NCBI GenBank assembly: GCA_017475265.1
Contig: JAFVFY010000024.1
Coordinates: 1 to 42,321 of the forward strand
Direction: 5' to 3'
DNA length: 42,321 nucleotides
Source of the DNA: Prevotella sp.
Lineage (GTDB): Bacteria > Bacteroidota > Bacteroidia > Bacteroidales > Bacteroidaceae
The notes under the pieces were generated by a model. The model was not told where the DNA came from. It did no database searches and saw nothing but the letters and a program-made list of their open reading frames with translations. Both the position numbers and the translations under genes were made by a program. Positions 6,132 to 15,282 of the stretch are shown here, in pieces (the first letter of the stretch is position 1; each line of letters starts with the position of its first letter).

Positions 6132-6219
6132 CTAAGTATCATGTTTACGTGTGCTAAGTATCATATTTACCTATGTTAAGTGCCATACTTACGAGGTCTA
6201 AACATGATACTTGCGGCTC
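6132..6219. repeat. Four tandem 22-bp iterons
   Basis: Units begin exactly every 22 bp at 6132, 6154, 6176 and 6198. They share the form yTAAgTatCATxxTTAC; units 1 and 2 differ at only a few positions and units 3 and 4 are more diverged. The spacing is about two helical turns, which fits binding sites for a protein on one face of the DNA. They lie between the small HTH gene and the VirE-type ATPase gene. Confidence 0.75.
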
Positions 6220-6231
6220 GCAAGTATCGTG
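6203..6231. promoter_or_regulatory. 13-bp inverted repeat overlapping the last iteron
   Basis: The arms CATGATACTTGCG and CGCAAGTATCGTG match at 12 of 13 positions around a 3-base centre. The site could be an operator, or form a tight hairpin in RNA. It overlaps iteron 4. Confidence 0.65.
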
Positions 6232-6238
6232 TTCTTCT

Positions 6239-6350
6239 GGGACAGTAGGACAGTAAAGACAGTAGAAAATGAAAACATTTCCGCGTACACTCGCACACAC
6301 GTACGCGAGAAAAGTTTAAAAGTTACTGTCCTTTACTGTCTACTGTCCCT
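6239..6350. repeat. Inverted GACAGTA-rich repeats downstream of the VirE-type gene
   Basis: Copies of GGACAGTAGGACAGTAAAGA (from 6239) and its inverted counterpart (ending about 6350, overlapping the ATPase stop codon) face each other across about 60 bp. Inside lies a further 7-bp inverted repeat, CGCGTAC at 6282-6288 and GTACGCG at 6301-6307. The unit could act as a terminator for the ATPase gene. Confidence 0.5.
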
Positions 6351-7706
6351 CTCAGGTTTCGCTTCGTCGGCCATGATGCGCTGTGCTGCAGCCATCTCTT
6401 CGCCTGTGCGCTGCACCACGATGTAGCCCCTCTGACTGCCATGTTTCACCCTCTTGTAGCCCAGGTCGTTGAAGGCCCTGCCAAGATGGACGGCACTGAG
6501 CTTCTGCGAAATGTTCGCGCTCACTATCTGCATGGCACGGGCCACAGGCATGAAGATGCCGCCCTCTATGCCAACGGGCTTACGGAAATAGAGATGCACC
6601 AGTTCCTTCTCCAGCCTTGGTGCTTCGAACTGGCTGTTGTGCTGCTGCAGCCGCACAATCTCCTCCTGCGTGAACCAGTAGCGGAAGCCCTGCTGGTAGA
6701 GCGCATACGCCTGAGAGTAGATGCCAGTATAGTCGAAGGGATGCTCACGGGGCGACTCTATCGACTCCACCTCAAACGGTAGCCAGCGGCGGTTGCCCGT
6801 GGGGTCAGAGAGGAACTGCACGTTGTTGCCCGTTCCGCAGAACGACGCGATGTGCTTGCGGTGCTCATGGAAGTGGGCATACGCCGCCCGCTCGTCAATC
6901 GACGGCATGGTCACCGCCGCCTTCAACTGGTTCAGCTCGCGGGCATTCATTGTGTCCAGCTCCTCGCAGCACACCAGACCGTACTGTGCCAAGGTCAAGA
7001 GGTCGTCGCGTCCCATCCTTTGGGCATTCGTTTTCGTGTAGAAATAGTTCGACAGCTCCGGCGGCAGCAGATAGTTGAACCACGTCGTCTTGTACGACCC
7101 CTGCTCACCAATCAGCACCAGGATGACGTTGTTCACCACCGACTCGTCCACCCATCCCGCCACCATGCCCACCAGCCACTTCGTCAGGTACTCAGCAAAG
7201 AGCATCTGCTCCTGCACGTGGCCCTTCACGCTCACCGAGACCGACATCGCCAGGATATGGTTCTGCCCGTCCCACTTCGGCAGGTGCTTCAGGTAATAGC
7301 GGAACGGATGGAACTCCGGCACGAAGTCCGACTCTATCACTCTGTACATGTCCTGCACCCGCACCACCTTCGTAGCCGACAGTTCGGCCCATAGCGAATT
7401 GACGATACGGTCGCTGATGGGCTGCCACAAGCCCCCTAAGTTAGGGGGTTCTTTGCATAGCAAAGCGGCAGAGCCGAGCGGGGGGTCTGAACAAGCGCAG
7501 GACATTCCCTCGTTCAGACCCCTGTCGCCCCCTAACTTAGGGGGCATAGAGCCTGGCAGCCGGTATTCCACCCTCCCCGTAATCACATTATGCCGCAGCA
7601 GAATCCTGTCCATCAGGAAGTTCTGAATGTCTTCCACCGTGGCCATGTACTCCTTCCAGTTTGGCTTTCGCTCACCGGCGGTCTCAGTTTTTTTCTTTTT
7701 GCTCAT
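6333..7706 (-). CDS. VirE-family P-loop ATPase (replication/mobile-element type)
   Basis: The 457-residue protein matches the helicase-like VirE family found on Bacteroidales islands and phages. A Walker A motif (IGEQGSYKTTW, near residues 200-210) is followed by a Walker B-like ELDTMNARELNQLKAAV region. The family signature FCGTGNNVQFLSDPTGNRRW comes next. There is no primase domain before it, so this is the short, ATPase-only form. Residues about 54-92 do not look like the rest. They are encoded by a palindromic repeat element inserted in frame (7431-7545) and are rich in PPKLGG/PPNLGG. A small HTH gene and iterons follow. The substrate and role are unknown; a remnant replication module is one possibility. 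Confidence 0.8.
   Translation of the reverse strand: MSKKKKTETAGERKPNWKEYMATVEDIQNFLMDRILLRHNVITGRVEYRLPGSMPPKLGGDRGLNEGMSCACSDPPLGSAALLCKEPPNLGGLWQPISDRIVNSLWAELSATKVVRVQDMYRVIESDFVPEFHPFRYYLKHLPKWDGQNHILAMSVSVSVKGHVQEQMLFAEYLTKWLVGMVAGWVDESVVNNVILVLIGEQGSYKTTWFNYLLPPELSNYFYTKTNAQRMGRDDLLTLAQYGLVCCEELDTMNARELNQLKAAVTMPSIDERAAYAHFHEHRKHIASFCGTGNNVQFLSDPTGNRRWLPFEVESIESPREHPFDYTGIYSQAYALYQQGFRYWFTQEEIVRLQQHNSQFEAPRLEKELVHLYFRKPVGIEGGIFMPVARAMQIVSANISQKLSAVHLGRAFNDLGYKRVKHGSQRGYIVVQRTGEEMAAAQRIMADEAKPERDSRQ
7431..7545. repeat. Palindromic element (type A) inside the VirE-type gene
   Basis: The ends are CCCCCTAAGTTAGGGGG (7432-7448) and its mirror CCCCCTAACTTAGGGGG (7528-7544). Inside are facing GGGGTCTGAAC (about 7482-7492) and GTTCAGACCCC (7512-7522). 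The same parts in the same order make up the element between nusA and infB (26151-26276). Here the element is 115 bp and read in frame as protein. It shows no stop codon in the gene's frame. Confidence 0.85.
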
Positions 7707-7894: not shown

Positions 7895-7926
7895 TTTGGC
7901 TCATTAGCGTTTTATTTGTACCTTTG
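7895..7926 (+). promoter_or_regulatory. Promoter for the 149-aa gene; mRNA predicted leaderless
   Basis: TTTG (7895-7898), a 20-nt gap and TACCTTTG (7919-7926) match the Bacteroidetes promoter exactly. The ATG at 7935 lies 8 nt after the -7 box, so transcription should begin within a few bases of the start codon. Confidence 0.75.
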
Positions 7927-7934
7927 CATCCGAA

Positions 7935-8384
7935 ATGGACAAGCGAACATCAGAAGACTATTATAAGGAAAGCAAGCGCATCAGAGAAGAAGTCATGCAG
8001 CAAGCGGATTCTCTGATAGGAAATCCCTTACGCTTCACCATAACCAATGGCATTACGATGGATGTGGAGATTACCAAGTCTGACTTGAAAACCATCGTCA
8101 GCAAGGCCTCTCGTGACAACAAGTTCAATGCCATCAAAAATGCATTGGCAAAGGACATTCCTGGTTTCTTGAAGAAAAGTGAATACATCGGTTGGCGGAC
8201 GGTAAAAGAAGGGAAGCACGAGGAAAGTGCCTACTTTGCCTACTTTGACCGTGATCTCGGCGTACGAACAATACTTGCCATGCGAAAGATGAAGAACCAC
8301 GGCCCCTACAAGCCATACGCCATCATTGATAAGTTCTCTTTCGAAGCAACAATTGGTGAACTTAAAAAAGGAACTCCGCTTTAA
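7935..8384 (+). CDS. Small standalone protein resembling phage barnase/EndoU/RelE-type nuclease domains
   Basis: The 149-residue protein has a charged helical N-terminus (residues 1-30). A domain with the pattern ALAKDIPGFLKKSEYIGW, then GKHEESAYFAYFDRDL, then KPYAIIDKF follows. This order resembles the nuclease-like domains found at the ends of large phage and island proteins (barnase/EndoU/colicin E5-D/RelE fold). That is from memory of the family and not a search result, and I cannot assign catalytic residues. It has no signal peptide or membrane segment. It is expressed from a near-perfect promoter with almost no leader. Its stop codon lies at the edge of the terminal stem of a convergent RNA candidate (8364-8506). 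Confidence 0.6.
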   Translation: MDKRTSEDYYKESKRIREEVMQQADSLIGNPLRFTITNGITMDVEITKSDLKTIVSKASRDNKFNAIKNALAKDIPGFLKKSEYIGWRTVKEGKHEESAYFAYFDRDLGVRTILAMRKMKNHGPYKPYAIIDKFSFEATIGELKKGTPL

Positions 8385-8506
8385 TGGCCTTGCTTGCCGG
8401 ACCAACCGGGGCTATCCATCTGAAGCGGAGTTTAAAAGTGCTTCTATTTTAGCAAGTCGCTTGCCGGACCAACCGGGGCTCTTACCCTAAATAGGTTCCT
8501 TTCACT
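8364..8506 (-). ncRNA. Candidate structured RNA 1, convergent with the 149-aa gene
   Basis: A complete promoter (8510-8541) drives the reverse strand. The predicted RNA is about 140 nt and has two domains. Domain 1 is closed by CTATTT/AAATAG (8489-8494 with 8444-8449), and probably by AAAGTG/CACTTT outside it; inside is the hairpin GCAAG-CGA-CTTGC. Domain 2 is closed by AACTCCGCTT/AAGCGGAGTT (8372-8381 with 8423-8432) and followed by a six-U tract, as in an intrinsic terminator. Each domain displays the same 22-nt segment beginning AGCCCCGGTTGGTCCGGCAA (8459-8480 and 8392-8413, given on the reverse strand). No open reading frame is evident. Function unknown. Confidence 0.55.
8392..8480. repeat. 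22-bp direct repeat, two exact copies
   Basis: Positions 8392-8413 and 8459-8480 are identical (plus strand starts GCTTGCCGGACCAACC). They are 45 bp apart. Both fall in loops of candidate RNA 1. Confidence 0.9.
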
Positions 8507-8509
8507 TTG

Positions 8510-8541
8510 CAAAGGTAAGTGCTTTTTTCGTAACTTCCAAA
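8510..8541 (-). promoter_or_regulatory. Promoter for candidate RNA 1
   Basis: On the reverse strand TTTG (8541-8538), a 20-nt gap and TACCTTTG (8517-8510) form a consensus promoter. The sequence after the -33 box, GAAGTTACG, is shared in near-identical form with the promoters of candidate RNAs 2 and 3. Confidence 0.75.
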
Positions 8542-8604
8542 TATTTCTACCTTTTTTAGCATCTTACAGCCCATTTTCTTCTAAAATCTCTGAAACGGGT
8601 AGCA

Positions 8605-8871
8605 ATGGCTACCATACGATCAAATGGTATTTGGGCGTCCGTTGGCAACAGCCTGTTAGACTCTATAGGACAATGTGATAGCATTCTCATCAATATGACA
8701 ACGGAATATAACACCCGTCAACTGGCCCTTTCAATAAAAAAGTATTTTGAGGTAAATAAGAAAGCCATCGAAGTTATGATCTTCAAGGGAGGCAAACGCA
8801 TCATTGTCAAACGTGCCTTGGCAACAAACAGTGATTTCCTTCGAATGTTCATAAAAGTCTATGAACGATAA
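8605..8871 (+). CDS. Small unknown protein, similar in pattern to the C-terminal half of the 14495-15007 product
   Basis: The 88-residue protein is not recognised with confidence. Its pattern SNGI...QCDSILINM...LALSIKKYF...IEVMIFKGGKRIIVKRALA lines up by eye with SENGI...QGCKVVVLDF...ILKTKKIV...EECYVVHYSKAVVVKADAF in the 170-residue protein at 14495-15007. That order is seen in CdiA-type tRNase domains, so this may be a shortened relative. A TAG codon lies two codons before the ATG, so it cannot extend upstream. I find no consensus promoter directly upstream (TACCTTTT at 8548 is one base off). Its stop codon is embedded in a bidirectional terminator shared with candidate RNA 2. Confidence 0.5.
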   Translation: MATIRSNGIWASVGNSLLDSIGQCDSILINMTTEYNTRQLALSIKKYFEVNKKAIEVMIFKGGKRIIVKRALATNSDFLRMFIKVYER

Positions 8872-8899
8872 AAACCACCCCTTGCGAGATGGTTTTTAT
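8868..8899. terminator. Bidirectional terminator between the 88-aa gene and candidate RNA 2
   Basis: The arms ATAAAAACCA (8868-8877) and TGGTTTTTAT (8890-8899) are perfect over 10 bp with a 12-base loop. The A/T tracts give a U-run in either direction. The TAA stop of the 88-aa gene lies in the left arm. Confidence 0.85.
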
Positions 8900-9000
8900 A
8901 CAAATGGAGCAGGGGCGGTGATGTCTTACTCCTGAAGCGGTGTCAATTAAGTCCTGCAACCTCGGGATTCTACCCGGATAGTCAAAACTCATGTTCTGAC
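8868..9000 (-). ncRNA. Candidate structured RNA 2, convergent with the 88-aa gene
   Basis: A perfect promoter (9005-9036) reads leftward and the terminator at 8868-8899 closes the unit, giving an RNA of about 130 nt. The 5' end forms an 8-bp hairpin, GTCAGAAC-ATGA-GTTTTGAC, at 9000-8981 (one G-U pair). A CGGG/CCCG stem-loop follows (8973-8976 with 8963-8966). GCAGG (8957-8953) can pair with CCTGC (8913-8909) to close a larger domain. The start of the transcript, CACCGTCAGAA, is identical to that of candidate RNA 3. No convincing coding frame is visible. Confidence 0.55.
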
Positions 9001-9004
9001 GGTG

Positions 9005-9036
9005 CAAAGATAGGAACTTTTTCCGAAACTTCCAAA
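9005..9036 (-). promoter_or_regulatory. Promoter for candidate RNA 2
   Basis: On the reverse strand TTTG (9036-9033), a 20-nt gap beginning GAAGTTTC and TATCTTTG (9012-9005) fit the Bacteroidetes consensus. Confidence 0.75.
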
Positions 9037-9052
9037 TCTTTGTGCAATTATT

Positions 9053-9628
9053 TTATGTTTTGCCAGTGTTTTCTTCAATATCCGTAGAAAACAACCGCTT
9101 CAACTTGTCTTGGAAATCCAGTGACTGTCGCTGATTCATGGCACGCGTATAGTCACCGCGCATATTGTTCCGCTTCCACAAATCGCCATACACCTTCCAC
9201 TTCTCCTTGATGCCCAACCGCTCAGCCATCGCATCGGCCAGGAGTGCCGCCTGCGTCCGCGAGAGCAGGGGCTGGTAGTGCTCATCCACGTAGCCCGCCT
9301 GCTGCGCCTTCCGCCACAGCGCCATCGCTTCATCGGTGGCGAGAACTTCAGGCAGGCTCTTTGACGCTTCAGCACTATCTACTCCCCCCTCGCCTTTTGG
9401 AGAGGGGGTTAGGGGGTGAGGCTTGTGGGGCTGGGGGTAGGCTCCAATATTAAACTGTTTATCCACATACTGGCTGCCTGGGGCATAGATGAACACGGGG
9501 CTGCCTTGGTGATCCTTGTCTGCGCGGTGCAGTTGCTCCAGCAGTTCGTTCACCTTCTTCAGGACATCGGCGGGCAGCATATCGCCGAGGCCGCCCAGAA
9601 AGTCTGGGACTTCTTTATGTTGATTCAT
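9053..9628 (-). CDS. Unknown 191-aa protein with an in-frame repeat insertion
   Basis: I cannot name a function. The N-terminal third (DFLGGLGDMLPADVLKKVNE) and the C-terminal half (ALWRKAQQAGYVDEHYQPL, then LLADAMAERLGIKEKWK and NNMRGDYTRAMNQRQSLDFQ) look like conserved soluble helical segments of a Bacteroidales family. The two parts are joined by a proline- and glycine-rich stretch (PHPLTPSPKGEGG) encoded by a short GC-rich palindromic repeat (9382-9423), so the linker is probably recent. There is no signal peptide or membrane segment. The mRNA has an unusually long, strongly folded leader from a perfect promoter at 9855-9886. Promoter and leader suggest that its expression is regulated. 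Confidence 0.6.
   Translation of the reverse strand: MNQHKEVPDFLGGLGDMLPADVLKKVNELLEQLHRADKDHQGSPVFIYAPGSQYVDKQFNIGAYPQPHKPHPLTPSPKGEGGVDSAEASKSLPEVLATDEAMALWRKAQQAGYVDEHYQPLLSRTQAALLADAMAERLGIKEKWKVYGDLWKRNNMRGDYTRAMNQRQSLDFQDKLKRLFSTDIEENTGKT
9382..9423. repeat. Short GC-rich palindromic repeat inside the 191-aa gene
   Basis: The CCCCCTC...GAGAGGGGG core followed by TTAGGGGGTGAGGCTT resembles short palindromic repeats seen in many genomes. Here it is read in frame as PHPLTPSPKGEGG. It differs from the type A element. Confidence 0.7.
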
Positions 9629-9669
9629 ATTTGCTTTTTCTCAAAAGAATAAGATTGTTTTGGAGAAAA

Positions 9670-9826
9670 GGGGGCGCGGACTTGTTTACTGACAACAACA
9701 TCATTCCTTAAGGCTCGTTACACCTGTGCACAAATGCCATAGCCAAAGCTCACGCCCCCGTATGGAGGTGTGAGCCGGCAGACATTCTTTCCTGTGCATT
9801 AACTTGTGTAACGATTTTAAAGGAAT
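9670..9826 (-). promoter_or_regulatory. Strongly folded 5' leader with two competing structures
   Basis: The leader of the 191-aa gene can form one long nested fold. Its pairs are ATTCCTT/AAGGAAT (9703-9709 with 9820-9826), CGTTACAC/GTGTAACG (9716-9723 with 9806-9813) and TGCACA/TGTGCA (9727-9732 with 9793-9798). The apical hairpin at 9748-9775 has 12-base arms GCTCACGCCCCC and GGAGGTGTGAGC, pairing at 11 of 12 positions with one G-U. In the RNA, GGGGGCG in that hairpin (9759-9753) is also fully complementary to CGCCCCC further downstream (9676-9670), which is followed by TTTT. The two pairings exclude each other, as in a switch or attenuator, or form a pseudoknot. It is not a riboswitch class I recognise. 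Confidence 0.5.
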
Positions 9827-9854
9827 GGCAAGAAAGCTGTCAATGCTCTGGGTG

Positions 9855-9886
9855 CAAAGGTACTGCAATTCTCTGAGACACCCAAA
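9855..9886 (-). promoter_or_regulatory. Promoter for the 191-aa gene
   Basis: On the reverse strand TTTG (9886-9883), a 20-nt gap and TACCTTTG (9862-9855) fit the consensus. The -33 flank (TCCTCAAATATTTGGGTGTC) closely matches that of the promoter at 15012-15043, which suggests shared descent. Confidence 0.75.
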
Positions 9887-9985
9887 TATTTGAGGAATTA
9901 TATTACGGACTCATTGTATTTTCTTTGTTTTATGGGCACATTCAGAAGATTCCCGAGTTTATTACTCATTTTTATAGTACTAACA

Positions 9986-12900
9986 TTATTTCTTTTTAGG
10001 TTGCTTATTAAATCTATACACAACATGCAGCAGAGCATAGCAAGGCTGGACATTGGTAAAGGTTTCGGTGCGGCCTTGGGCGTTGACGATGCGGGTAACG
10101 TTGTCGAGCTGACCGAGGAGGTCGAAGCCGTCGAGCATCAGCAGTAGGCGACCTTTGAGGAAGGGGCGCGAGAGACGAGCATTCCATACAAGGTCGGTGG
10201 TGTTAAGCCTTGAGTCGGCATAGCCTGTACGGGTGTAGAGATTCAAGTCGGTATTGAGTTCCATCTTCCACGGAAGTTTCAGCAGGGCAGTCAGGCTGTT
10301 GGTGAGCGTGAGGGGCTGTTGCGTCTCGAAATCTGTGCGCTGACTGGTGTATCGCTGCCAAAGGGTGGTGTTCTTGAAGCTGAACGAGTGCTGTCCTAAC
10401 TTGTAGGAGAGTTTCAGCGTGTTGTTGAGCGAGAGGGTGTTGACGGTGCTACGCTCTTGGTCTACCAAATCGACGCTGTGCTGATAAGTGATACTCGGGC
10501 TAACATTGAGGCGGAGCGGATGCTTCTTGCCAATAGCAGTATTAAAGCTGTAGTTGACATCGGCATTCCAGTTGCCGTTCACGTTGTCGGCCTGCCAAGT
10601 GCGGACACCTGTGGCGCGGTCGTAGCGATAACCCATGGCAAGGGCGTTTTGGATGATTGAGTAGCCGAGCGAGTACCGATGACTAACCTCTTTTTGGTTC
10701 GCGTTTCCCCATTGGTGACTGAACGAAAACCGGTGGTTAACAGCATTGTGCAGACTGTTATTGCCCAGGCGGATGTTCAGCGGGTCGGTATCGTCGCGCA
10801 TATCCACAAGGTTCTGCAAGTCGGGTGTCGTGCTCGTGGCAATGTACTGGAGATGCAGTTTCTGGGCATGCCCCGTCACTTTATTGATGGTAGTATACTG
10901 GATAAAGCAGTCCCAGATGTTGATGGGCATGGTGTTGCGAGTGACGAGGGTGTCTATGCTGCCACGCTGGTAGTTAAGCTGTTGACGAACGAGTGTGACA
11001 GGGAAGCCGAGTTGTGACCACCACTTTTCCTGATATGACTCGTTGTCGGTGTAGGCGTTAAAGAACAGTCGAGGGCTGAATTCGTAGATATCTTCGGTGA
11101 AGTGGCTCGTATAACTGTTGCGACGATCAATGTATTGCTCATATTCATAAGCCGACGGCAATTGGCCGAGGGCGTAGGTGGTGTCAATGTCGAAGAGCGA
11201 TGACTCGCGTCGGCGGTCGTTGTGAGTATAGCTCGCATTCAATTGCAGTCGGATCAGTTGGGTGAAGTTGATTTGATAGGTGCCACCACCCCTGGCTTTC
11301 CATGAACGGTTGGGATGGTTGCGGTAGTAGCGATTGAAAGCTGCAGATGTTTGACTGGCATACTCAACAGACTGACGATGGTAGCGGTCTTCCTGCTGGT
11401 CGCGGAAGCTGGCTTCAGCATCGAGGGAAGCCCAGTCGGGACTATGGTGAAACTTAAAAGTACTGTTTAGGCGTATTGCACCGTCAATGCTGTGACCTTC
11501 TGTGAGACTTCGTTGCAAATTGCGGTTGATGAGGCTGTCGTTCTGATAGAAGGCTGAGGCAAGGCTGTATGTGCTGTTGTCAAACTTCTGATAGTTGAGC
11601 GATGGACGAACGTCAAGATTCCACATGCCGAAGTTATGGTAATAGTGGTGGCTGGTGTTCAGCTTCAAGTTCTTGTCGCGCTGAGTGTTGTGGATGCGGT
11701 CGTAAGTATCGCCTGTGAAGAGGTAGTTCTGTCGGAAGGTATTCGTCTCACGGTTAAGGTCGGTATGGGTCACTTGCACATTGCCGTCAACTTTCCACTT
11801 GCTGTTGCGGTCATCCACGTTGTAGTCTATACCTGCCTGTTGCTGAGTCAGTTGTCCACCGTCTTGCAATCTTTGCGGGTCCCAGCTGCCCGCTTCTCCT
11901 GGTTTGCCGTCGCCATTCATATTGTTGGCTGTAGCATAGGCCGCAAGGCGCGAGTGGTCGCTGAAGCGGAGAGCAAAGAGTCGGGCGAGCCAACGTTCCT
12001 TAGTTCCACCACCAACCTCTGCATTTGCCAACGTGCCAATATGGTATTCCTTCTTCAACTTTACGTCCATCACATAGCGGTTGTCACCCATGACGTGCTG
12101 ACCAAGAAACTCGCTTTGATCGCCCCACTTGTCGTAAATCTGAATGTCCTTCACAGTATAAGTCGGCAGATTGTCGAGCATAATGGTGTGGTCACCTCGG
12201 AAGAAGTCTTTTCCGTTCAACAGCAGGGCGTCGACATACTTGCCGTTGTGGTAGATGCGACCTCCCTCCTTCAATTCTACACCAGGCAGCTGACGTACCA
12301 GCGCATCAAGCATTGAGCCTTCGGCCAACTCGAAAGCGTCGGCATTGAACACGAGCGTATCGCCCTTATAGTAGAACTGCACCTTTGACGAGGTGACAAC
12401 CACTTCCTGAAGTATCTTAGTTTCACGTTTCATATAGACAGGAGGAAGTTCACGGCGCTGTTCTCGACGATAGATGTTGTTCAACTCAAAAGGCATTTCG
12501 GTGGGTTTGAAGCCTACGTAGGTCGCCTGAATGATATATTTGGCTGGTCGTGCGGGAACTCTGAAAGCAAAGTCTGCGTACTCAATGGGAGGATTATTGC
12601 CATACTGCATATATGAGATAGCTTCACAGGAGTCAATACGTACACCATCGGCAGTAAGCAGGCGAACATTGGAGTGTGGCAAGTCATTGTGTGTCAAGTT
12701 GTCTTTTACCTTGCCTGTGAGTACGATATAACGGTTGTCTGCCTTTGGCTTATATTGTACAAATATCTGCTTTCCTTTAGTCACCACCCGCACAGGCTGG
12801 TCTTTAGTCAGTTGTTTAACTGCCTTGGGAGCACTCATGCCCTCAATACCGGCCACCACTTGCAAGTGCTCCAGTTCGTTGTGAATGAAGGATATTTCGT

Positions 12901-13012
12901 AGTCGTCCTGTTGTTGATTCAGATGTTCCAAAGCGTCAGCCAAGGACAATGTCTGTGCCGATGCACTCAGCAATGAGCAAGCCCATAGAACAAAGAGGAT
13001 GAAATGTTTCAT
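9986..13012 (-). CDS. Outer-membrane beta-barrel receptor with STN signalling domain
   Basis: The 1008-residue protein starts with a signal peptide (MKHFILFVLWACSLLSASAQ). An STN-type signalling domain follows (TLSLADALEHLNQQQDDYEISF to about residue 87). A carboxypeptidase-like regulatory repeat (VLTGKVKDNLTHNDLPHSNV) and a plug-like domain (LVRQLPGVELKEGGRIYHNG) come next. The remaining 600 residues are rich in alternating aromatic beta strands and end in VVYRFNKQPKKK. It resembles the TonB-receptor-like barrels of Bacteroidetes that signal to FecR proteins. The start overlaps the stop of the anti-sigma gene by 4 bp (ATGA), so translation is coupled. No SusD-like partner lies nearby, and the ligand is unknown. 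Confidence 0.85.
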   Translation of the reverse strand: MKHFILFVLWACSLLSASAQTLSLADALEHLNQQQDDYEISFIHNELEHLQVVAGIEGMSAPKAVKQLTKDQPVRVVTKGKQIFVQYKPKADNRYIVLTGKVKDNLTHNDLPHSNVRLLTADGVRIDSCEAISYMQYGNNPPIEYADFAFRVPARPAKYIIQATYVGFKPTEMPFELNNIYRREQRRELPPVYMKRETKILQEVVVTSSKVQFYYKGDTLVFNADAFELAEGSMLDALVRQLPGVELKEGGRIYHNGKYVDALLLNGKDFFRGDHTIMLDNLPTYTVKDIQIYDKWGDQSEFLGQHVMGDNRYVMDVKLKKEYHIGTLANAEVGGGTKERWLARLFALRFSDHSRLAAYATANNMNGDGKPGEAGSWDPQRLQDGGQLTQQQAGIDYNVDDRNSKWKVDGNVQVTHTDLNRETNTFRQNYLFTGDTYDRIHNTQRDKNLKLNTSHHYYHNFGMWNLDVRPSLNYQKFDNSTYSLASAFYQNDSLINRNLQRSLTEGHSIDGAIRLNSTFKFHHSPDWASLDAEASFRDQQEDRYHRQSVEYASQTSAAFNRYYRNHPNRSWKARGGGTYQINFTQLIRLQLNASYTHNDRRRESSLFDIDTTYALGQLPSAYEYEQYIDRRNSYTSHFTEDIYEFSPRLFFNAYTDNESYQEKWWSQLGFPVTLVRQQLNYQRGSIDTLVTRNTMPINIWDCFIQYTTINKVTGHAQKLHLQYIATSTTPDLQNLVDMRDDTDPLNIRLGNNSLHNAVNHRFSFSHQWGNANQKEVSHRYSLGYSIIQNALAMGYRYDRATGVRTWQADNVNGNWNADVNYSFNTAIGKKHPLRLNVSPSITYQHSVDLVDQERSTVNTLSLNNTLKLSYKLGQHSFSFKNTTLWQRYTSQRTDFETQQPLTLTNSLTALLKLPWKMELNTDLNLYTRTGYADSRLNTTDLVWNARLSRPFLKGRLLLMLDGFDLLGQLDNVTRIVNAQGRTETFTNVQPCYALLHVVYRFNKQPKKK

Positions 13013-13617
13013 GGCTGTACCTCCTTATCCGCATTTACGAATATGGTATCCCGTTCGTCAACGAGTTGCAATCCTTCAAACTCATTCACATCGTTGAGGA
13101 ACGTACTGAGCGGTTGCACGCTATCCCATCCAATAGTAAAACGTAGCTGACGCAAAGTGTCGTTGCGGAAACAAATGGCATGGCCATAGTGGGCGCTCAC
13201 GACCGAAAGTACACTATCGAGTGGAGTGTTGGAGAAGTGGACTGCCTCCCCAAGCCCCTCCGATGGAGGGGGTGTTTGGGTACATGAAACAGGTGATTCG
13301 GCATCCCCTCCTTTAGAGGGGTTTGGGGAAGCTATCCATAGCATTGCAGCGATAGCGATGCCAGAGATCAGCAGGACGCCGATAAACATGGCAGCCACAC
13401 GGAGCCATTTATGACTAGAAGGCGTTGTCAGTCGCTTCCACTCGTCATCGATGGTCTCGTCATCAATATCCTTTTGGGCATCGAATGTACTTTTAGTCTT
13501 TGCCATCAGGGAATAGAGTTCACGGCATTCTTCATCCGATAATATCTCCTGCCACTGCTGCTCGGTATAAGCTTGGGGCTGTTCCATCATTTGGAACAAA
13601 AGGTCGGTCTTGTTCAT
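13009..13617 (-). CDS. FecR-like anti-sigma factor
   Basis: I start this at ATG 13617 (MNKTDLLFQMMEQPQAY), 4 bp after the sigma factor stop; the open frame extends further upstream but into the sigma gene. A cytoplasmic N-terminal sigma-binding part (about residues 1-68) is followed by one transmembrane helix (WLRVAAMFIGVLLISGIAIA). A periplasmic C-terminal domain of the STN-like DUF4974 type comes last (SNTPLDSVLSVVSAHYGHAI, then LNDVNEFEGLQLV). The usual FecR domain between helix and C-terminus is missing or very short. In its place is a linker made by an in-frame palindromic repeat (13246-13331). It should hold the upstream ECF sigma factor until the receptor signals. Confidence 0.82.
   Translation of the reverse strand: MNKTDLLFQMMEQPQAYTEQQWQEILSDEECRELYSLMAKTKSTFDAQKDIDDETIDDEWKRLTTPSSHKWLRVAAMFIGVLLISGIAIAAMLWIASPNPSKGGDAESPVSCTQTPPPSEGLGEAVHFSNTPLDSVLSVVSAHYGHAICFRNDTLRQLRFTIGWDSVQPLSTFLNDVNEFEGLQLVDERDTIFVNADKEVQP
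13246..13331. repeat. Palindromic element pair inside the anti-sigma gene
   Basis: CTCCCCAAGCCCCTCC-GAT-GGAGGGGG at the left and CCCCTCCTTTAGAGGGG-TTTGGGGAAG at the right form two hairpins that also pair with each other. Read in frame on the reverse strand they give ASPNPSKGGDA and TPPPSEGLGEA, separated by ESPVSCTQ. The site is exactly at the linker just after the membrane helix. Confidence 0.75.
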
Positions 13618-13621
13618 CTTG

Positions 13622-14116
13622 CTAATCTTTTTTAAGGTGATCACGTAATTGTTGAAGCGCATGGCGCAGATACTTATAGACGGTGGTCTCGCTGACACCG
13701 AGGCGAAGGGCTATTTCACGGAAAGTGAGACCATCGCGGAAATGCAGTTCCACCACTTCACGACAGGCGGGTGGTGCTAACAGGCTGATGCCCTCTGTAA
13801 GAGCATTCGTCTCTTCACGAAATAGGTCTGTCGGAATGATAGTGGTGTCGAGGTCGAGGAGGTAGAGCCGTTGGACTCGTTCCTGAATCTTCCTGCCACG
13901 TATCACGTTCAAACATCGGTTGCGTACACTGGTGAGTAAGAACGCTGCTGCCGTATTCTCATGCAACTCAGCTGATGAGGCAAGCAACTGAGCGAAGACA
14001 TCATGCACAATGTCCTTGCTCTCAGCATCATCGTGCAGAAGCATGGTTGCCAACCGATACATCTGCCGGTAATGCTGTCGGAACAGCGTTTCAAGTGTTT
14101 GTTTTCTTTTCGTCAT
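13622..14116 (-). CDS. ECF-family RNA polymerase sigma factor
   Basis: The product has about 164 residues from ATG 14116; a GTG at 14131 is possible. Region 2 is visible (LFRQHYRQMYRLATMLLHDD, ESKDIVHDVFAQLL). Region 4 ends with a clear helix-turn-helix (LTFREIALRLGVSETTVYKY). It is the FecI/SigW-like type that Bacteroidetes pair with FecR anti-sigma factors and STN receptors, and both genes follow directly. The cassette order sigma, anti-sigma, receptor implies that outer-membrane ligand binding switches on this sigma factor. A likely -7 box lies at 14206-14213. Confidence 0.9.
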   Translation of the reverse strand: MTKRKQTLETLFRQHYRQMYRLATMLLHDDAESKDIVHDVFAQLLASSAELHENTAAAFLLTSVRNRCLNVIRGRKIQERVQRLYLLDLDTTIIPTDLFREETNALTEGISLLAPPACREVVELHFRDGLTFREIALRLGVSETTVYKYLRHALQQLRDHLKKD

Positions 14117-14205
14117 ATACCTATAATACACATCAAAACCGATTTACTAAACCCTAAAGGCTAACTTTTTTCCATTTTTCTTTGTTCAAACACGATTTCA
14201 CGGTA

Positions 14206-14213
14206 CAAAGATA
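14206..14213 (-). promoter_or_regulatory. Promoter -7 box for the sigma/anti-sigma/receptor operon
   Basis: The reverse strand reads TATCTTTG about 90 bp upstream of the sigma start. There is no consensus -33 box, which would fit autoregulation by the ECF factor, but this is only suggestive. Confidence 0.4.
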
Positions 14214-14361
14214 GTCATTTCTTCCTATTATATAGTAGGTAGAAGGCGAAAATATTACAGGAGGAAATCAAGGATAAAGGAATGGAGAGTTAAGATTCCT
14301 TTGAGAAATGCAAACGTTTTTGTACCAAAACGTGCAATGAGAGAAAAAAGATGCCCGAAAA

Positions 14362-14393
14362 TTTGGAAGTTTCAATAATTATGTCTATCTTTG
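14362..14393 (+). promoter_or_regulatory. Promoter for candidate RNA 3
   Basis: TTTG (14362-14365), a 20-nt gap beginning GAAGTTTC and TATCTTTG (14386-14393) match the promoter of candidate RNA 2 in spacing and in the extended motif. Confidence 0.75.
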
Positions 14394-14397
14394 CACC

Positions 14398-14510
14398 GTC
14401 AGAATGTCGTCAGAGGGCGCGAAACGAACTGCTTTCGGAGCAATATTTCAAGCTGGACCTTTCTGACCACCATACGAGGACATAGCCCAGAGGGTTATGT
14501 CCTCAGTCGT
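14398..14510 (+). ncRNA. Candidate structured RNA 3, convergent with the 170-aa gene
   Basis: The RNA predicted from the promoter at 14362-14393 is about 110 nt. Its 5' GTCAGAA (14398-14404) pairs with TTCTGAC (14461-14467), closing a domain with an inner TGCT-TTCGG-AGCA hairpin. The 3' end is a GAGGACATA/TATGTCCTC stem-loop (14476-14504) with only a weak U-tract. The transcript begins CACCGTCAGAA, as does candidate RNA 2. The stop codon of the opposing gene lies in the 3' stem-loop. No coding frame is evident. Confidence 0.5.
14476..14504. terminator. Stem-loop shared by RNA 3 and the 170-aa gene
   Basis: The arms are perfect over 9 bp (14476-14484 and 14496-14504) with an 11-base loop. The TAA stop of the reverse-strand gene (14497-14495) is at the base of one arm. 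The T-tract is poor on both sides, so termination efficiency is uncertain. Confidence 0.55.
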
Positions 14511-15007
14511 TCTATCACGTCGTTGATCAGTTGCTTGATGGTTTCCTTGTCTGGCGCAGCGAAGGCATCAGCCTTCACGACAACAGCCTTGCTGTAATGA
14601 ACCACATAACACTCTTCAAGACTCCCCTCGCTGAAATCTTCATGGCGACCGAAGAGACCAGAGACAATCTTCTTCGTCTTCAAAATGCTTTCAGACATGT
14701 GCATGTCAAAGTCGAGTACGACCACCTTACAGCCTTGTTGCTTGGCCTTACGGAAAGCCGACTTGATGCCGTTTTCGCTTTCCACGCCCTTTCGGTCGCC
14801 CAGTTTCCCGTTGATGGTATATTCCGGATTCTTGTGGCCGATGACCAGCAGATGCTCATTGATACGGATGTACATGTCGTCGAAGCACCGCAACAGCACC
14901 CTTGCCACTCGGATGTTATCGCTAAGTTCTGTCTGGTCTGCACGAACGCTGATAAGCAAGCGTTCCCCGTATATCTCGTCTGTCAGGAAATCCTCATTCT
15001 GAATCAT
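14495..15007 (-). CDS. Small standalone protein resembling CdiA-type tRNase domains
   Basis: I start this at ATG 15007 (MIQNEDFLTDEIYGERLLIS), which gives 170 residues. The open frame runs further upstream, but the promoter at 15012-15043 lies there. The core NPEYTINGKLGDRKGVESEN followed by GIKSAFRKAKQQGCKVVVLD resembles the nuclease domains at the C-termini of CdiA-like toxins. In those, an Asp/Lys pair precedes a helix and a hydrophobic strand. This is family knowledge, not a search result. There is no secretion signal and no obvious immunity gene next to it. The predicted transcription start is at or next to the ATG, so the mRNA should be leaderless. Candidate RNA 3 faces its 3' end. Confidence 0.6.
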   Translation of the reverse strand: MIQNEDFLTDEIYGERLLISVRADQTELSDNIRVARVLLRCFDDMYIRINEHLLVIGHKNPEYTINGKLGDRKGVESENGIKSAFRKAKQQGCKVVVLDFDMHMSESILKTKKIVSGLFGRHEDFSEGSLEECYVVHYSKAVVVKADAFAAPDKETIKQLINDVIERLRT

Positions 15008-15011
15008 ACTG

Positions 15012-15043
15012 CAAAAGTAGTAAGATTCTTTGAAACGCCCAAA
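15012..15043 (-). promoter_or_regulatory. Promoter for the 170-aa gene; mRNA predicted leaderless
   Basis: On the reverse strand TTTG (15043-15040), a 20-nt gap and TACTTTTG (15019-15012) are followed after 4 bases by the ATG at 15007. The box excludes the longer open frame as the real start. Confidence 0.7.
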
Positions 15044-15239: not shown

Positions 15240-15282
15240 GAACATCCGCTTCTGTAGTCAAGTGCTACAGAAGCGGATGTTC
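15240..15282. terminator. 18-bp perfect hairpin after the VWA gene
   Basis: GAACATCCGCTTCTGTAG (15240-15257) is exactly repeated in inverted form at 15265-15282 with a 7-base loop. It lies 12 bp after the VWA stop codon. There is no U-tract, so it may be a processing or protection structure, or the trace of a palindromic repeat, and not a classic terminator. Confidence 0.6.

Follow-up and report, generated by a model that had tools for sequence, protein, structure and literature searches.

Structured RNAs that face nuclease-like toxin genes in Prevotella as candidate convergent RNA antitoxins

Background

Type III toxin-antitoxin systems (ToxIN, CptIN, TenpIN) are described in the available text of PMC5086642 as one operon under one promoter, in which the RNA precedes the toxin on the same strand and is built of tandem repeats. 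In AbiF/RCd22, found in a Clostridioides difficile prophage, the toxin is neutralised by direct RNA-protein interaction and the RNA holds two motif copies, according to the accessible portion of PMC12373285. Here we analyse a contig of Prevotella sp. (GenBank JAFVFY010000024.1, positions 1 to 42,321; these 42,321 nucleotides (nt) are referred to as the window) in which three nuclease-like open reading frames (ORFs), one of them truncated, are each opposed by a structured RNA, and we propose that these RNAs act as antitoxins.

Other toxins of interest here are countered by proteins. The PD-(D/E)XK CdiA-CT toxins of contact-dependent inhibition are carried on a large CdiA and neutralised by the CdiI protein (PMC9086364, as far as its available text goes). 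The polymorphic MuF toxins such as Bxa and Apk2 combine MuF with a C-terminal toxin near a portal gene. A small ORF follows 89.4 % of 191 known MuF toxins in the accessible part of PMC5576092, and every MuF toxin identified in the corresponding part of PMC11699363 has a small immunity ORF after it.

Judged by sequence, the proteins studied here fall into three toxin classes (A, B and C), each of which is paired with its own RNA class. The pairs resemble type III systems in having a small structured RNA, modules that are repeated in some classes, a nuclease-type toxin partner and no protein antitoxin seen here. Unlike in type III, the RNA lies downstream of the gene, is encoded on the opposite strand and has a promoter box to itself, which holds for the window as well as for the genome and phage loci; the proteins are CdiA_C PD-(D/E)XK or LPD3-like. 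Compared with the tandem repeats of type III, the modules number one or two in classes A and B and one in class C. None of the three window proteins matched ToxN, CptN or TenpN in Pfam, NCBIfam or PADLOC, where a family absent from a list could escape. The gene order fails the type III definition, and we file the pairs as a variant of RNA antitoxins that would be type III-like in its working. AbiF/RCd22 shares with our pairs a phage-encoded toxin and an RNA, binding being here a proposal; in the accessible portion of its source RCd22 lies upstream of its gene with co-transcription suggested, and the protein family is unrelated. The class A and C domains are also found behind MuF near portal genes, with a facing RNA in place of the immunity ORF, whereas the window copies are standalone and lack the MuF fusion. 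Likewise, where CdiA-CT toxins have CdiI and a large CdiA, the window has a facing RNA and a standalone gene.

Results

Comparison across loci indicates that the convergent pairing is real and conserved. The earlier note on this DNA had proposed looking for a facing RNA at homologues, for covariation in the RNAs and for a nuclease fold in the proteins. The RNA was found, at least in part, at 80/80 class A loci, at 29/29 class B loci among those listed of 46 matches and at 20/22 class C loci among those listed of 24 matches; the class A and B RNAs covary; and the class A protein is predicted by modelling to be a nuclease of the PD-(D/E)XK, CdiA-CT-like type. The RNAs are about 50-150 nt long, and gene and RNA converge, a stem-loop at the stop codon of the toxin being their meeting point. 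Where related loci have named records, these are mostly uncultured Prevotellaceae and Prevotella, many of them rumen-derived. Xylanibacter ruminicola D31d (L200) and Prevotella sp. ne3005 (L187, L189) are among the cultured carriers.

In the window the three ORFs lie between a VapE-like gene and housekeeping genes, each with its short opposite-strand transcription unit. The features are as follows.

7895..7926, + strand: promoter of the 149-amino-acid (aa) gene (TTTGG, 19 nt, TACCTTTG); ATG at 7935
7935..8384, + strand: class B toxin candidate, 149 aa; LPD3 match under cut-off, E 2.6e-5
8364..8509, - strand: RNA1, class B, two AGCCCCGG...CCGGCAAG modules (8444-8494, 8374-8430)
8510..8541, - strand: RNA1 promoter
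8605..8871, + strand: class A toxin remnant, 88 aa; PD...DxK motif lost with the N-terminal part
8865..9004, - strand: RNA2, class A; model R1 match at 8934-9004
9005..9036, - strand: RNA2 promoter
14362..14393, + strand: RNA3 promoter
14394..14508, + strand: RNA3, class C, with an outer stem, a CGCGA...TCAAG core and, at the stop codon of the 170-aa gene, a terminal stem-loop
14495..15007, - strand: class C toxin candidate, 170 aa; PF18451 CdiA_C above cut-off; NPEY...DRK motif
15012..15043, - strand: promoter of the 170-aa gene (TTTGG, 19 nt, TACTTTTG)

The ORF coordinates were confirmed. The claim of three nuclease-like genes each facing a structured RNA holds for all three layouts, but only two of the genes (149 and 170 aa) are intact, the 88-aa one being a remnant without the catalytic motif. 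All three RNAs have an exact TTTGG-19-TAnnTTTG promoter of their own, run tail to tail with the gene and end at its stop, in agreement with the complete promoters claimed before; the distance of 20 nt then given between the boxes is indeed constant, but it counts from TTTG and becomes 19 from TTTGG. We take TTTGG/TAnnTTTG to be the housekeeping promoter of Bacteroidota, in which a spacing of 19 nt is by itself ordinary. The exact pair of boxes occurs six times in the 42 kb: at the three RNAs, at the 149-aa and 170-aa genes and at 9886-9855 (- strand). No consensus promoter was found upstream of the 88-aa remnant. As a control, a facing promoter (spacing 19, at 60-260 nt) was seen in 5/239 unrelated ORFs, two of which (L220, L228) turned out to be class A toxins missed by the filter.

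Compared with dinucleotide shuffles all three RNAs fold better than expected, with z scores of -2.6 for RNA1, -3.4 for RNA2 and -3.3 for RNA3. The outer stem of the second RNA1 module covers the stop codon of the 149-aa gene and is followed by a U-tract, while RNA2 starts with a 5' hairpin and continues with a variable one, a pair of similar core modules and a terminator at the stop of the remnant. A terminal stem-loop at the stop codon, as the earlier note had it, is thus found in all three RNAs, but a U-tract follows it only in RNA1 and RNA2; the terminator of RNA3 is only presumed because the U-tract is missing.

The sixth exact promoter (9886-9855) would drive a strongly structured stretch of 215 nt ahead of a 191-aa ORF (9053-9628). 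This stretch, at 9640-9854 (- strand; z -4.3; arms 9702-9723/9806-9827), is either a leader or a separate RNA.

Of the protein folds proposed before (barnase/EndoU/RelE-like or CdiA), CdiA fits classes A and C, whereas BECR/RelE is unfit for these two. The 170-aa protein matches PF18451 CdiA_C above cut-off, making class C a predicted CdiA_C-like PD-(D/E)XK nuclease. The 149-aa protein reached 24.8 bits against LPD3, under the curated cut-off of 27 and over residues 12-104 only, and is the only one of the three window proteins that could be BECR-like. For the same three proteins PHROGs gave no match and PADLOC one weak match that was not taken as real, and a PDB sequence search with classes A and C gave no convincing relative. 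Rfam matched no family, either in the window at gathering scores or at ten loci under permissive settings, the only matches being under gathering scores.

The full-length class A toxin has about 180 aa, and the 88-aa ORF is its N-terminally truncated remnant; a full-length relative (L014) is 97 % identical to it. A protein-side scan of GTDB contigs gave 165 relatives, of which 80 were kept. Model R1 matched on the opposite strand directly after the gene at all of them (marginally at L253, E 0.087), and a facing promoter within 30-330 nt was present at 63/80 with a spacing of 19 and at 65/80 with a spacing of 18-20, a wider distance range than that of the 239-ORF control. In the RNA a 5' hairpin and a variable hairpin precede one or two similar cores and the terminal stem-loop; two cores were seen in the window, L014, L023 and L029 and one in the others. 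In an alignment of 18 class A RNAs, 95.9 % of cells are paired and double changes occur at 8/18 pairs, with 24 double-change cells observed and 6.5 obtained by shuffling. R1 RNAs are present in 81/299 genomes of the genus and in 0/344 other genomes of the phylum under stricter filters; diverged facing RNAs are nonetheless seen in phages. No class A match was found on plasmids. In a few RNAs (L018, the same place as L164, and L033) the variable middle is enlarged to about 90 nt with hairpins of its own. A reading of the variable hairpin as a mimic of a tRNA T-arm was dropped, as unrelated hairpins occupy that place in other class A RNAs.

The earlier note saw no adjacent protein antitoxin, and this extends to class A as a whole: of 1003 ORFs around the 80 toxins, no non-toxin ORF recurred at over 5 further loci; flanks of 1 kb or more on each given side were available at 72/80. 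The neighbouring ORFs shared most often overlap the RNA itself.

Counting from the RNA side gave 153 class A places, of which 5 lie at contig ends, leaving 148 that can be evaluated. There, 76 RNAs face an ORF match beginning in the first 75 of the 180 profile positions, 17 face a shorter remnant and 55 face no toxin ORF; 14 of the toxin-less RNAs matched the pattern of the toxin's last codons, 13 of these being real by eye. The TAnnTTTG box is perfect in 99 % of the RNAs with a toxin, 94 % of those with a remnant and 84 % of the solo RNAs (72, 17 and 55 scored), against a background of 0.16 %. Two or three class A RNAs may also lie within a few kb of one another, in some cases toxin-less (L175 with three RNAs, L041, L132, L078).

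Class B was found in 37/299 genomes of the genus and in none of the viral contigs. Its RNA has one or two modules, the outer stem of the last one at the stop codon, and is incomplete at three places (partly deleted at L272 and L284, cut by the contig end at L287). Among 20 modules 93.9 % of cells are paired, double changes occur at 10/17 pairs and 46 double-change cells were observed against 14.3 by shuffling. The RNA subtype tracks the toxin subtype in 26/26 typed rows (of 32 rows, in which L002/L261 and L003/L282 repeat the same places). At two loci (L108, L273) a class A RNA is followed by a class B RNA in one apparent transcript that opposes a class B gene.

Class C was found in 22/299 genomes of the genus, and the two loci without RNA (L304, L306) are broken fragments. 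The RNA has a single module, in which CGCGA and TCAAG are kept in 19/19 aligned RNAs, phage ones included, and the flanking stems vary in sequence; beyond this core the joint MAFFT alignment of the stems is unreliable. Four PF18451 loci were found outside the genus. Two of them (L309, L310) have no facing promoter and a small co-directional ORF adjacent, like a protein immunity gene, so that a facing RNA does not go with the CdiA_C fold in general. At L312 an ORF of 81 aa overlaps and a facing box is absent. At L311, in a genome of the same class and another family, a 145-aa CdiA_C ORF is opposed by a TATTTTTG box, with a short GC-rich hairpin ahead of the shared stem-loop, perhaps another RNA class.

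The genes were said to stand alone, which is the case for the window copies, but class A and C domains also form the C-terminus of MuF-domain proteins adjoining portal genes in phages and prophages. Pfam MuF scored above cut-off in L255, L257, L298, L317 and L323, just under it in L321, and had no match in L258. A scan with a class C-like CdiA_C domain from phage gave 25 viral contigs, some of them near-duplicates, in which MuF was tested by Pfam for L317, L321 and L323 only. The domain ends an ORF of 425-487 aa in 23/25. A TAnnTTTG box opposes the stop at 46-93 nt in 24/25, the short RNA coming next, and the remaining contig ends too early. The next co-directional ORF (at least 60 aa) begins 2-139 nt on in 21/25, and these ORFs are mostly virion-like by eye. 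In phage vB_RanS_PJN03 a 578-aa ORF that follows the portal gene ends in a class A domain, 33 % identical, and has a facing box; this ORF gave no MuF match in Pfam.

Three other features of the window were noted. The VapE-like ORF (6333-7706) contains a perfect 18-nt inverted repeat, GCCCCCTAAGTTAGGGGG, at 7431-7545 that resembles an in-frame mobile or repetitive extragenic palindrome (REP)-type insert. A perfect 18-nt hairpin lies at 15240-15282, and inverted repeats are found at 6134-6349, with GACAGTA units recurring at 6239-6349.

Discussion

We consider it probable that the RNA is the antitoxin or immunity factor of the nuclease toxin it faces and that it works in a type III-like manner by binding the nuclease. 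At the loci examined, toxins are seldom found without the RNA, RNAs are often found without a toxin and two RNA classes can be strung together, which is the pattern of an antitoxin. We hypothesize that transcription of the RNA is constitutive, that its fold consists of one or two compact modules and that, like type III RNA antitoxins, it blocks the active site of the nuclease by binding to it. By analogy with type III and AbiF/RCd22, direct binding would be the likeliest mechanism. In phages the nuclease would be the C-terminus of a MuF head protein in an apparent late operon; in the lysogen the RNA, expressed from its own antisense promoter, would give protection against leaky expression or against a related phage's toxin. 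An RNA still present after the loss of its toxin would count as an orphan immunity gene.

Alternatively the RNA may repress synthesis of the toxin in a type I-like way, through base-pairing with the mRNA or convergent transcription. The convergent layout, with the overlap at the terminal stem-loop, speaks for this, but we hold it to be improbable. The overlap is limited to the variable terminal stem-loop, where complementarity of the 3' ends is given by position, and between the RNA core and the toxin start region (-50 to +40) the RNA's own partner pairs no better than mismatched ones (54 class A pairs; mean rank 0.519, own partner best in 2/54, as by chance). Conserved core loops and covarying stems would not be expected of transcriptional interference, and orphan RNAs would be left without a target. 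The earlier note spoke of a nuclease partnered, guided or inhibited by the RNA; the pairing is regular and inhibition fits best, but guiding is unsupported because the RNA cores are conserved and paired and no variable guide segment is seen. A role of the RNA in switching on or directing the nuclease, as a cofactor or guide of the kind known from RNA-guided systems, would account for the tight linkage; this is nevertheless very unlikely given that solo RNAs are common and that the CdiA_C relatives L309 and L310 lack a facing promoter, so that the fold needs no RNA. It is hardly probable, too, that a mobile cassette ends in this structured RNA, perhaps as a recombination site, and that the RNA is transcribed only incidentally: modules do occur in many contexts and truncated genes lie beside intact RNAs, but the promoter is near-universal at a fixed position, different toxins go with different RNA families that show compensatory changes, and the same layout recurs next to the head genes of phages, with the toxin as part of a MuF fusion.

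Several observations weigh against an RNA antitoxin. At -33 the promoters of the solo class A RNAs are weaker (65 % compared with 90 %), and some solo RNAs are therefore decaying; their count also starts from RNA matches, so that decayed RNAs are missed. The phage contigs have a weak -33 element, and a -7 box that stands alone may at some loci be due to chance. Among the 76 class A RNAs facing a toxin match, at least 4 of the ORFs are partial (L049, L065, L025, L028), and at four places (L025, L028, L035, L132) the ORF lies 201-385 nt from the RNA. At L253, a case seen once, the class A toxin frame is open with one change beside the motif and the RNA is degraded. L004, a class B gene whose 3' end is altered, has no RNA in the 126 nt before the contig end. 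Finally, the concordance of class B subtypes is also expected from linkage alone.

Conclusions

With rather more conviction than doubt, we suggest that Bacteroidota phages and bacteria use RNA, not protein, as immunity to polymorphic nuclease toxins, with several unrelated families of convergent RNA that meet the toxin at a shared stem-loop. Such RNAs would protect lysogens from MuF-delivered nucleases; Prevotella-like bacteria would have domesticated them, both in standalone toxin/RNA modules and in "poly-immunity" transcripts of several RNAs that outlast the toxin. In the open-access literature no paper was found that describes antitoxin RNAs convergent with their toxin or immunity to polymorphic toxins through RNA, and this is possibly the first case of the latter.

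Polymorphic toxins are commonly assumed to have proteins as their immunity partners, and an RNA-paired family would explain phage toxins without an obvious immunity ORF. If true, our reading would bring into toxin-antitoxin biology RNA antitoxins that are convergent with nucleases of the CdiA-CT type, and would provide families of compact RNA modules for the study of nuclease inhibition. A promoter opposing the stop codon of a toxin may serve as the rule by which further cases are searched for.

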